DNA of 34,431 nucleotides from Chloroflexota bacterium (GTDB taxonomy: Bacteria; Chloroflexota; UBA11872), in NCBI GenBank assembly GCA_026707585.1, contig JAPOWQ010000064.1, positions 1 to 34,431 on the forward strand, given 5' to 3'. Shown here in pieces: positions 768-21,876 of this stretch (the stretch's first letter is position 1; every line of letters begins with the position of its first letter). The position numbers were made by a program, and so were the translations under genes. Below the pieces are notes generated by a model that saw nothing but the letters and a program-made list of their open reading frames with translations, made no database searches and was not told the origin of the DNA.

Positions 768-873
768 CTCGTATCAAGATTGGTGGAGGGAGTCGGCCCA
801 ACGAAGCCGGGCAACCTTCGAGTGAACGCTCGAGAGGGTGCCAATTCCGGTAGCGGACGCTGCAAGATGCGAG
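768..873 (+). promoter_or_regulatory. SAM-I (S-box) riboswitch aptamer
   Basis: The segment matches the S-box consensus. P1 is a continuous 8-bp helix (768-775 with 866-873). Then come ATCAAGATTGGTGGAGGGA, the GGCCCAACGAAGCCGGGCAACC core, a P3 hairpin (TCGAG/CTCGA), the conserved GGTGCCAATTCC block, P4, and GCAAGATGCGAG closing P1. The family binds S-adenosylmethionine and normally turns off methionine or cysteine synthesis and uptake genes. It lies about 200 nt before the thrC-like start with no gene between, so it should control thrC and the following sulfur-carrier gene. Confidence 0.95.
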
Positions 874-17805: not shown

Positions 17806-18147
17806 CTATTCCTCGAAGGTGACGCTGGCGGCGTGGAGTTCGTCGGGGCAGGCGCGGTCGATGGGGACGGGGGTGGGGAGGTTGTTCTGCTGGATGTAGC
17901 CCTTGTCGGCCAGCCAGGCTTCCACTTCCTCGCCGCTGACGTCGGCCAGCATGCGGCCGTCCACGACCACGCAGGGTGAGAGCGGCTGGCCGCTCCGGGC
18001 GACCATCTCGTAGTAATTGGCCGCGTTGTTGATGATGTCCTTGTCCTCGTAGTCCAGGCTGTACTTGTCCATCACGGCGCGCACGCCGGCGCTCCAGCCA
18101 CAGACGGGCTTCAGGTAGGCGGTGATGGCGGGCTGTTCGGTTGTCAT
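17806..18147 (-). CDS. Glutaredoxin-like protein with CGWS active site
   Basis: 113 residues. The N-terminal thioredoxin-fold core is glutaredoxin-like: AITAYLKPVCGWSAGVRAVM, with a single active-site Cys16 in CGWS, then YEDKDIINN, a cis-Pro segment LSPCVVVDGRMLADVSGEE, and an extra C-terminal tail. CGWS with one Cys in the motif suggests monothiol chemistry or Fe-S handling; a second Cys precedes CVVV. I prefer the ATG at 18147; a GTG at 18156 would add three residues. It is transcribed divergently from the selenocysteine peroxiredoxin, 140 nt away, and is a natural candidate reductant for it (inference). Confidence 0.85.
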   Translation of the reverse strand: MTTEQPAITAYLKPVCGWSAGVRAVMDKYSLDYEDKDIINNAANYYEMVARSGQPLSPCVVVDGRMLADVSGEEVEAWLADKGYIQQNNLPTPVPIDRACPDELHAASVTFEE

Positions 18148-18287
18148 GGGATTCACTCTCGCACGGGAGAAACGGGCTTCCCGATTCTGGCAGACCGGAG
18201 CGGCGGCGGGAAGAGGAGCGGCCCGGAGTTGACCGGCGATTGAGGAGCCGCCACGCTGCGGGTGCCGCGCTGGAGAGGATGACCGGC

Positions 18288-18746
18288 ATGACGCGACTGA
18301 ACGTGGGCGACCGATTTCCCGAACTGACGGGGCGCTGGGACGACGGCCGACCGGCCCGCATACCGGACGAACTGGACACCGGGCCCGCGGTGCTCTTGTT
18401 CTACCGCGGCCACTGGTGATCGCATTGCCGGCGGCAGTTGGTCGCCTATAGCTACGTGCTGGACGCGTTCACCGCGCTGGGCGTGCAGGTGGTGGGACTG
18501 TCGGTCGATTCGGCAGCCGACGCCGCGGCGACGCGCGAACGTTTGCAGGTGGACGTACCGCTGGTGGGCGACCTGGCCTACCCGGACTCGGTGGACATCC
18601 TGGGGGGTTACCGGAACGAGGACCGGCAGTCGCACCAGGCCACGGCCTTTGTGCTGGACGCCGACCGCCGCGTTGAACACGCCGTGTACAGCGCCACCAA
18701 CGTCGGGCGCCTGATGCCCGAAGAAGTGCTGCGGATCCTCAGCTAA
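18288..18746 (+). CDS. Peroxiredoxin-like selenoprotein (in-frame UGA = Sec44)
   Basis: An AhpC/TSA-type redoxin of 152 residues if the in-frame TGA at 18417-18419 is read as selenocysteine. Upstream: LNVGDRFPELTG and AVLLFYRGHW. At the TGA homologues carry the catalytic Cys of GHWCPxCRRQL; here the order is GHW-U-SHCRRQL. Downstream the same frame continues through VQVVGLSVDS, VPLVGDLAYPDSV and TAFVLDADRRVEHAVYS to a normal stop. So Sec44 replaces the catalytic Cys and Cys47 is the likely resolving residue. A SECIS-like hairpin follows the TGA. The start at 18288 has GGAGAGG nine bases upstream; an ATG at 18279 touches that site. A TTGACC sequence at 18229 may be a -35. It should reduce peroxides with thiol partners. 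Confidence 0.9.
18417..18446 (+). promoter_or_regulatory. UGA(Sec) codon with bacterial SECIS-like hairpin
   Basis: From the TGA at 18417, 10 nt of spacer lead to a 6-bp stem, GGCGGC (18430-18435) with GTCGCC (18441-18446), closed by the five-base loop AGTTG. The loop lies 17-21 nt after the TGA and contains the GU pair that SelB contacts in bacterial SECIS elements. Size, distance and loop content fit the known requirement for Sec insertion. The hairpin lies within coding sequence, as bacterial SECIS elements do. Confidence 0.75.
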
Positions 18747-18752
18747 CCGCGG

Positions 18753-19769
18753 TCAGACCAGGTTAGGGTTGACGCTCGACCACTCGTCGATGGGCGGGAT
18801 GATCCCCATGCCGATGGTCTCGTCGCGCAGCGCCTGAAGATGGGCGTATGCGACATCGAGTTCGGCCTGTTCGGCGGCGTCACCCGTTGGCATGGACCAG
18901 TTCACGCCGTCCGGCCCCAGTTCGGCCGGCATGGCCATCATCACGTGCGAGTACGGCTCACCGGTGAGGTAGGCGCCGCAGGGCCACTCGAAGGTCGAAC
19001 CGCCGGCGGTGGCGTGCACCATCATGGCCGTCTGGTGACCGGGCGACTGGAACGACGAGCGCCCGCGCAGCTTGATGATGCGGGAGCCGCCGTCCAGCAC
19101 GTCCTGGCGAATGCCTGCCCAACCGTCGGCATCGAGCCCAATCCCATTGACCGTAGCTCCTGCGATGACGTCGTTCAGCAGCACGCCGTCAATGCGCGTT
19201 TCGCCCTTGAACAGCGCCATTTCCTGGCCGTGGCCGCCGTAGGTGCGGCAGCCGGTGACCCGGGATTGGGACACGCCGAAGTGTTCGGCCAGGCGGGTCT
19301 GCAGGCGGGTGCTGTCCAGGCCGGCCAGGGTGCTGACGCGCGAGGCCGGCAGGCCGGAGTGGACGAGCGTGACCAGCCCGGTGACGTCGGCCGGATTGAA
19401 GACGATCACGACCAGCTTGGCACTGGGCGCGTTCGCAGCGATGTCCTGGCCCAGTTGAGCGGCGATCTCGGCGTTGCCGCGTAGCAGGTCTTCGCGCGTC
19501 ATCCCCTCGCGGCGCGGCGCGCCCCCGGAACTGAGCACGTAGGCCGCGTCGGTCAGAGCTTCCGCTGCATCGGTGGTCCAGGTGACCTCGGCGTCGGGGA
19601 AGCCGCAGTGGTGAATCTCGGCCGCGGCGCCTTCCAGGCCCGGGCCGAACGGGTCGTACATAGCGATGCGATTGGCGGCGCCAGTGGCCAGCAGGGACTG
19701 GACGATGTTGGACCCCACAGCGCCGGCAGCGCCCATGACCGCGACCTTGTCGTTGGTGACGTAGTTCAT
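18753..19769 (-). CDS. mdh: Malate dehydrogenase (LDH/MDH superfamily)
   Basis: 338 residues. NAD-binding Rossmann motif GAAGAVG at 13-19, acidic residue after strand 2 (YDPFG), substrate Arg loop GGAPRREGMTREDLLRGN, FNPADVTGLV, LAGLDSTRLQTRLAEHF, and the catalytic His loop TYGGHGQEM in place of GEHGD. The paired Arg in APRREG points to a dicarboxylate substrate and hence malate rather than lactate. Overall it resembles the Bacteroidetes-type MDH more than the compact Chloroflexus enzyme. The ATG at 19769 follows the aldolase stop by 11 nt, so the two are one transcript. Confidence 0.88.
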   Translation of the reverse strand: MNYVTNDKVAVMGAAGAVGSNIVQSLLATGAANRIAMYDPFGPGLEGAAAEIHHCGFPDAEVTWTTDAAEALTDAAYVLSSGGAPRREGMTREDLLRGNAEIAAQLGQDIAANAPSAKLVVIVFNPADVTGLVTLVHSGLPASRVSTLAGLDSTRLQTRLAEHFGVSQSRVTGCRTYGGHGQEMALFKGETRIDGVLLNDVIAGATVNGIGLDADGWAGIRQDVLDGGSRIIKLRGRSSFQSPGHQTAMMVHATAGGSTFEWPCGAYLTGEPYSHVMMAMPAELGPDGVNWSMPTGDAAEQAELDVAYAHLQALRDETIGMGIIPPIDEWSSVNPNLV

Positions 19770-21408: not shown

Positions 21409-21876
21409 CTAGCCGGTAAGGCAGGCCATCACTGGGTCGTAGTCGGGCAATTCCGGCACGTCTGGGGCAGTCTCGATGTGGGCGACGTTGCCATCCGGGT
21501 CGACCACGATGACCACGCGATTGGCGATGTTCATGCCCTCAAGCAGCACGCCGTAGGCGCTGGCCGTGGCTCCGAGCGGGTTGAAGTCGCTCAGCACCGG
21601 ATAGCTCACGCCGGTCTGCTCGGCCCAGGCCTGTTGCGACCAGCCGTTGTCCGTGGAGATCGCGACCGTCACCGTGCCCTCGAGCCCGGCCAGCTTGTCC
21701 TCGATGATCGGGAGCTGGTTGCTGCATGTCGGCGAGAACGCCGCCGGCACGAAATTAATCACCACGGTCGAGCCGCGATGGTCGCTCAGCTTGAACGGCT
21801 CTTCGCCCCTGGGCTTCGATGGAAGCTCGAAGTCCGGAGCCTCGTCACCAACCTTCAATGTCGCTGTTTCAGACAT
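21409..21876 (-). CDS. Peroxiredoxin (AhpE/BCP type, cysteine-containing)
   Basis: 155 residues. LKVGDEAPDFELPS, then LSDHRGSTVVINFVPAAFSPTCSNQL with peroxidatic Cys51 in the PxxxTxxC motif, and a late FNPLGATASAYGVL. The domain is the Prx fold; the FVPAAFSPTC form is typical of AhpE-like enzymes. C-terminal Cys in VMACLTG could act as resolving residue. The ATG at 21876 has GGGAGG six bases upstream; the preceding GTG would add one residue. It uses ordinary Cys, in contrast to the selenoprotein at 18288. Confidence 0.93.
   Translation of the reverse strand: MSETATLKVGDEAPDFELPSKPRGEEPFKLSDHRGSTVVINFVPAAFSPTCSNQLPIIEDKLAGLEGTVTVAISTDNGWSQQAWAEQTGVSYPVLSDFNPLGATASAYGVLLEGMNIANRVVIVVDPDGNVAHIETAPDVPELPDYDPVMACLTG

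Follow-up and report, generated by a model that had tools for sequence, protein, structure and literature searches.

We analyzed a stretch of 34,431 nucleotides (here, the window) from a sponge-associated Chloroflexota lineage, in which a glutaredoxin gene with a CGWS motif and a gene for a peroxiredoxin-like selenoprotein lie back to back. On balance, we favor the reading that synteny at the level of the lineage keeps the two genes together and that they are no dedicated pair for electron transfer; the glutaredoxin would be associated with Fe-S clusters and the selenoprotein would act as a thiol:disulfide oxidoreductase. The locus calls for caution, since divergent adjacency of two redox genes is not readable as a module when the whole block is syntenic.

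Layout of the locus

The glutaredoxin gene (positions 17806 to 18147, minus strand; 113 residues plus stop) was delimited from its Pfam match (PF00462 Glutaredoxin, 2.6e-9, 37.6 bits against a cut-off of 22.9), the starts of its relatives, and an AF2 model. The selenoprotein gene (18288 to 18746, plus strand; 152 residues plus stop) was recognized by its match to PF00578 AhpC-TSA (6.6e-18), by conservation of its TGA, and by selection. No NCBIfam model scored over its own cut-off for either protein. Alternative starts lie upstream of both genes, a GTG at 18156 for the glutaredoxin and an ATG at 18279 for the selenoprotein. From comparison with relatives, the ATGs at 18147 and 18288 appear likelier, since the ATG at 18279 is ATC in one relative (G012) and the selenoproteins of the second genus start with MARLNLG, at the second methionine. 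The distance between the preferred starts is exactly 140 nt (18148 to 18287), and with the Pfam matches this bears out the divergent glutaredoxin and Sec peroxiredoxin genes and the 140-nt gap given in a preliminary description. The Cys peroxiredoxin at 21409, which it had set apart from the pair, is indeed a separate AhpC-TSA/Redoxin protein by Pfam. Convergent with the selenoprotein gene is a malate/lactate dehydrogenase-type gene (18753 to 19769, minus strand), assigned by Pfam and synteny and part of the GRX-PRX-MDH-HpaI block. The window also contains a partial 16S rRNA gene at the contig end (1 to 375, minus strand) and a SAM riboswitch (768 to 873, plus strand; 74.3 bits).

Selenocysteine at the TGA codon

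We searched for the selenoprotein in 151 genomes, its own and 150 relatives, and counted as close copies those with an E value below 1e-55. Of the 19 family genomes, 18 had such a copy, and the one without it (G003) is 76% complete. Each of the 19 close copies, from 18 genomes, has a single TGA at the same codon of FYRGHWUSHCRRQL (Sec44; 18417 to 18419, plus strand). One genome of the second genus (G016) carries two copies, one of them on a 5.7-kb contig (L079; G016:C8). The genes on this contig resemble those of the other genus at 91 to 97%, and the contig may be a binning contaminant.

On the 3' side of the TGA, dN/dS was 0.08 to 0.14 in four same-genus comparisons and 0.43 to 0.46 in three more distant ones. 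The genome encodes tRNA-Sec (G000:C20; 71 bits against a cut-off of 47, with weaker matches also in control genomes) and SelB (G000:C39; 332.5 bits against 242.25). Because the TGA is kept in 19 of 19 copies, the frame after it is under purifying selection, and tRNA-Sec and SelB are present, the identification of the TGA as a selenocysteine codon is well supported by the sequences.

The alternative is normal termination at the TGA, followed by a remnant or an independent short gene in the downstream frame; it could draw on the weakness of the SECIS element. The candidate bacterial hairpin (18415 to 18446, plus strand; apical stem 18424 to 18438, loop 18430 to 18432) gave a fold z score of -1.58 over 54 nt, with 18 of 200 shuffles folding equally well, and just 10 nt separate the TGA from the hairpin loop downstream. 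Folds of a longer stretch and of two homologous stretches gave z scores of -0.27, 0.51, and -1.30; in the alignment, 98% of cells were paired, yet without any both-sided change (no covariation). Against an ordinary stop stand the TGA common to all copies, homology on both of its flanks, the low within-genus dN/dS after it, and the tRNA-Sec and SelB of the genome, and we consider this alternative hard to credit.

In the same genome, the internal TGA of a second AhpC/TSA-like frame (L002; G000:C72:106388-106672) lies in a UxxC setting; this frame probably encodes another selenoprotein. The window also holds two adjoining DUF3179 genes (Pfam PF11376; 23849 to 26637, minus strand), one with CPLC and the other without; DUF3179 is among the selenoprotein families listed in PMC13188914.

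Active site and class of the selenoprotein

Besides Sec44, Cys47 (18426 to 18428) is the only cysteine, and the UxxC codons span 18417 to 18428 (plus strand). The structural model had a middling pLDDT of 69, and its nearest solved folds were the true peroxiredoxins ApTPx and Bcp (Foldseek match to the peroxiredoxin fold, 3.9e-8). By its AhpC-TSA/Redoxin domain and its fold, the protein belongs with the peroxiredoxins. In contrast, the active site departs from theirs. According to PMC5719442, the invariants of peroxiredoxins are the pattern P-x(3)-[TS]-x(2)-C together with a single Arg that is conserved strictly. In the alignment to ApTPx, Arg40 takes the place of the Pro and Sec44 that of the Thr of PxxxTxxC, while Cys47 matches the peroxidatic cysteine (CP); the pattern is thus broken. 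The strictly conserved catalytic Arg is absent from this alignment, the first catalytic Arg of ApTPx falling in a gap of the selenoprotein; R141, in GRL, aligns with an ApTPx Arg. The arrangement of Arg40, Sec44, and Cys47 was the same in a further alignment of 10 sequences. The earlier label "selenoperoxiredoxin" therefore suits the fold and not the active-site signature, from which Pro, Thr, and Arg are missing relative to ApTPx, and because that signature is broken, peroxide reduction by the selenoprotein is unproven.

A peroxiredoxin-like selenoprotein family in which a thioredoxin-like UxxC replaces TxxU was described in 2005 from the Sargasso Sea (PMC1088965), and Table 1 of PMC13188914 (2026) has the entry "Prx-like thiol:disulfide oxidoreductase, PF00578, UxxC, UxxU." The selenoprotein of the window has the PF00578 domain and UxxC, and its host has tRNA-Sec and SelB over the cut-offs; judged by these features, it fits this known class. 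The nearest relative found outside the family in the 151-genome search was 38% identical (G129). A 33% identical UxxC relative (RGAWUSYC; L180, 1494 to 1974) was seen by eye after a SulP/STAS-type transporter frame in the genome that also provides the glutaredoxin locus L126.

A glutaredoxin with a CGWS motif and a conserved tail cysteine

The AF2 model of the glutaredoxin (pLDDT 90) matched E. coli Grx3 best (Z 10.1, 2.0 Å over 79 residues), with other glutaredoxins and GST folds among the further matches; Grx3 is also its best solved relative by sequence. The PF00462 domain and the fold make the protein a glutaredoxin. A scan for homologues gave 508 confirmed stretches over several phyla, of which we kept the best 80, all from named genomes. 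We found CGWS (Cys16 to Ser19; 18091 to 18102, minus strand) in 80 of these best 80, the constancy of Cys-Gly-Trp being partly due to how the homologues were chosen, because the scan's own patterns include KPxCGW.

After the glutaredoxin core follows a tail in which the homologue alignment places a cysteine (Cys100; 17848 to 17850, minus strand) in the motif VPxDxxC. This cysteine was found in 78 of the 79 uncut homologues among the best 80 of 508 (L099 has Arg), a count that leans to tailed forms because the 80 are the best scorers. The tail was missing in six more distant relatives of the class (L059, L060, L061, L092, L094, and L095). The tail that the preliminary description called unusual is thus real and conserved. 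Replacement of glutathione by the tail cysteine did not hold up as a correlation: most genomes of the tail-less class relatives are without GSH-S_ATP and GCS2 as well, and the second genus keeps the tail although both domains are present there. We found no paper on a CGWS glutaredoxin in the literature searched, which was mostly without subscription journals. The CGWS glutaredoxins are a widespread family with a conserved tail cysteine.

The pair is conserved within a syntenic block of one family

The two genes were divergent neighbors in the window and in each of the 18 stretches fetched (19 of 19), and the divergent order was kept in all 18 family genomes with the selenoprotein. Conservation of the pair in relatives, a check that had been proposed, was thus seen within the family and not seen at the loci outside it. 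Around the pair, the order rplT-rrmA-pheS-pheT / GRX-PRX-MDH-HpaI / Tpx-ABC has mostly been preserved over 15 kb; the G002 stretch showed neither Tpx nor ABC. Because the pair sits within this syntenic block, its conserved order is weak evidence of coupling. The gap between the two genes is 140 to 337 nt in all 19 places, whereas insertions reaching about 4.3 kb occur between the glutaredoxin gene and pheT; since the pair is never broken up, some selection for keeping it is possible, as read from gene order. The gap next to pheT is an insertion hot spot whose cargo differs between genomes. In G016 (L080, 12490 to 12573) and G018 (L082, 13350 to 13472), the 3' end of the glutaredoxin gene is duplicated, the additional copies (28 and 41 codons) lying 2 to 3 kb beyond the gene.

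We aligned the 19 intergenic regions (140 to 337 nt); blocks close to either gene are conserved, and the sequence upstream of each gene can be recognized across two genera. A shared operator was considered and rejected, as no common palindrome was seen by eye in the alignment, and no sigma-70 consensus promoter was found in the region between the genes. In the 337-nt region of G002 (L067), a promoter-like block of ~34 nt is repeated twice, by eye, upstream of the selenoprotein gene.

Outside the family, the two genes part. The glutaredoxin was present in 21 of 22 genomes of the same class (E ≤ 9.3e-30; G039 reached only 3e-8), and a close selenoprotein relative was present in none of the 22 (best E, 1.3e-9). 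The 80 kept loci reach four other phyla. In the flanks fetched for these best 80 of 508 (up to 6 kb per side), the selenoprotein gene lay near the glutaredoxin in all 16 loci of the family and in none of the 64 outside it. A peroxiredoxin partner elsewhere in the genomes of the other phyla was also rejected: 42 of 50 glutaredoxin-bearing genomes gave an AhpC-TSA-like match, none of them close, and the best genome-wide relative in 50 of the 64 glutaredoxin genomes had an E value of 5.2e-17 and 33% identity.

Genes next to the glutaredoxin outside the family, mostly of Fe-S biology

At 50 of the 64 outside loci, the glutaredoxin lies by SUF (18), gltB (22), or uracil-DNA glycosylase (UDG) superfamily (10) genes, in sets without overlap. 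The SUF loci are those of 17 Poribacteria and L126, with the order sufC-B-D-GRX-sufS-sufU-Rieske-sufT, some being cut before the outer genes. In L154, NCBIfam models placed sufC, sufB, sufD, sufS, and sufU over their cut-offs and a SufT-type gene below, and the Rieske protein was a Pfam match; in L126, sufD, sufS, and sufU were over the cut-offs. L126 is a 4.1-kb contig labeled Dehalococcoidia whose glutaredoxin tail nearly matches those of L130 and L136, both Poribacteria loci, and it may be misbinned. The 22 gltB loci, from Verrucomicrobia (one as Akkermansia) or unclassified, have gltB, the gene for the large glutamate synthase subunit, on the same strand downstream of the glutaredoxin, and 13 also have gltD (gltB was checked in L162 and gltD in L145, whose GltD has a Fer4_20 domain). 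The 10 UDG loci (9 on the same strand) come from Latescibacterota, Verrucomicrobia, Gemmatimonadota, and one unclassified genome; for the L160 gene the best NCBIfam model was the archaeal type-4 UDG, below its cut-off. Both glutamate synthase and family-4 UDG are Fe-S proteins. Because the loci are related within phyla, the 17 Poribacteria loci are not 17 events, and the 50 loci are perhaps three.

Within the class of the window, no SUF genes were found near the glutaredoxin at 13 loci fetched from the 22 genomes outside the family, and a conserved neighbor was rejected, as no neighbor family was common to all families sampled. A glutaredoxin gene in a SUF operon was unreported in the accessible parts of the sufBCD-glutaredoxin literature searched, mostly without subscription journals.

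Thiol and Fe-S machinery

In 41 genomes, no CGFS glutaredoxin (TIGR00365) was found over the cut-off, and BolA, the usual partner of CGFS glutaredoxins, was found in none. SufB was over the cut-off in 36 of the 41 and thioredoxin reductase in 33; the window's own genome has thioredoxin reductase over the cut-off. The GSH-S_ATP domain of glutathione synthetase was lacking from all 13 genomes searched in the genus, all 6 genomes of the second genus had it, and GCS2 was present in 17 of the 19 family genomes, so a low-molecular thiol may be available. The dithiol route for reducing a selenenylsulfide is closed to a CxxS monothiol glutaredoxin. With the monothiol motif, the lack of a glutathione synthetase match in the genus, and thioredoxin reductase in the cell, the glutaredoxin appears less plausible as the reductant of the UxxC protein than the preliminary description had suggested.

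Syntenic neighbors or one module

In the reading we favor, the CGWS glutaredoxin would most likely work in Fe-S cluster biology, as a carrier or in the repair or maturation of Fe-S enzymes, using Cys16 and perhaps also Cys100. Its SUF, gltB, and UDG neighbors suggest that it may bind a [2Fe-2S] cluster and transfer it. In the selenoprotein, Sec44 would attack a substrate disulfide or an oxidized thiol, Cys47 would resolve the intermediate by forming a selenenylsulfide within the protein, and a dithiol of the thioredoxin type would then recharge it. The selenoprotein is probably reduced by thioredoxin, and direct electron transfer from the glutaredoxin to it probably does not occur. An Fe-S-associated role of the glutaredoxin is likelier than that of a private reductant because it is monothiol, glutathione synthesis is not evident, and its neighbors elsewhere are mostly Fe-S genes; a private reductant is also less likely because the selenoprotein carries its own resolving cysteine and the cell has thioredoxin reductase. 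Counted against the Fe-S reading are the fold, closest to Grx3, a redox glutaredoxin, the 0 of 41 genomes with BolA, and a SUF link restricted to Poribacteria and L126. The unbroken order of the pair, the missing SUF genes in the class of the window, the GCS2 and GSH-S_ATP matches, and, for the selenoprotein, a middling model closest to true peroxiredoxins also speak against the favored reading.

The module proposed earlier, a peroxide-removing pair in which the glutaredoxin serves the selenoprotein as its dedicated reductant, would explain why, in one family, the genes are divergent with starts 140 to 337 nt apart (19 of 19 places). The hybrid Prx5 structure 1nm3 is among the matches of the glutaredoxin model (Z 9.3), and hybrid peroxiredoxin-glutaredoxin proteins show that a glutaredoxin can serve a peroxiredoxin. 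However, the whole block is syntenic, the glutaredoxin always occurs outside the family without a close selenoprotein relative (21 of 22 class members; 0 of 64 loci with one nearby), its motif is monothiol, none of the 13 genus genomes searched gave a glutathione synthetase, and the peroxiredoxin signature is broken. We therefore consider the compact peroxide-reduction module improbable, although a direct coupling within this one family is conceivable. Less remote, though still unlikely, is that the two are functional neighbors without electron transfer, both responding to oxidative stress or iron stress through the intergenic region that they share, where the glutaredoxin would restore Fe-S clusters and the selenoprotein would repair oxidized thiols. 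The kept divergent arrangement, the upstream regions recognizable across two genera, and the Fe-S contexts of the glutaredoxin elsewhere are consistent with this; the failure to see a shared operator by eye or to find a consensus promoter, and the missing adjacency in all other glutaredoxin-carrying clades (64 loci), argue against it.

A bolder and rather unlikely suggestion is that CGWS glutaredoxins are an undescribed class of Fe-S carriers, encoded within the SUF operon between sufD and sufS in some phyla and working without CGFS glutaredoxins or BolA, with the tail cysteine serving as an additional cluster ligand, perhaps instead of glutathione. In several phyla, Fe-S genes surround the gene of a CGWS glutaredoxin with a tail cysteine, and the family makes it testable how Fe-S trafficking runs without CGFS glutaredoxins, BolA, and (perhaps) glutathione.

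Comparison with known systems

Class I E. coli Grx3, whose active site is a dithiol motif, is the best structural match and best solved sequence relative of the window's glutaredoxin, which differs from it in CGWS and in the extra tail with its conserved cysteine. With the CGFS monothiol glutaredoxins (E. coli GrxD/Grx4 and yeast Grx5), it shares the monothiol CxxS glutaredoxin fold, and the Fe-S gene neighborhoods suggest similar work; GrxD is an Fe-S trafficking protein (PMC11327457). Unlike them, it has CGWS, a Grx3-like spacing before the cysteine (by eye), and the cysteine-bearing tail, does not match TIGR00365, and occurs without BolA. The selenoprotein resembles the peroxiredoxins ApTPx and Bcp/PrxQ in fold and in R141, aligned within GRL with an ApTPx Arg, and differs in Arg40 for Pro, Sec44 for Thr, and the missing first catalytic Arg. 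With the peroxiredoxin-like UxxC selenoproteins it shares the AhpC-TSA domain and a UxxC replacing TxxU/TxxC, and it differs from them in its RGHWUSHC version, which is that of one Chloroflexota family.
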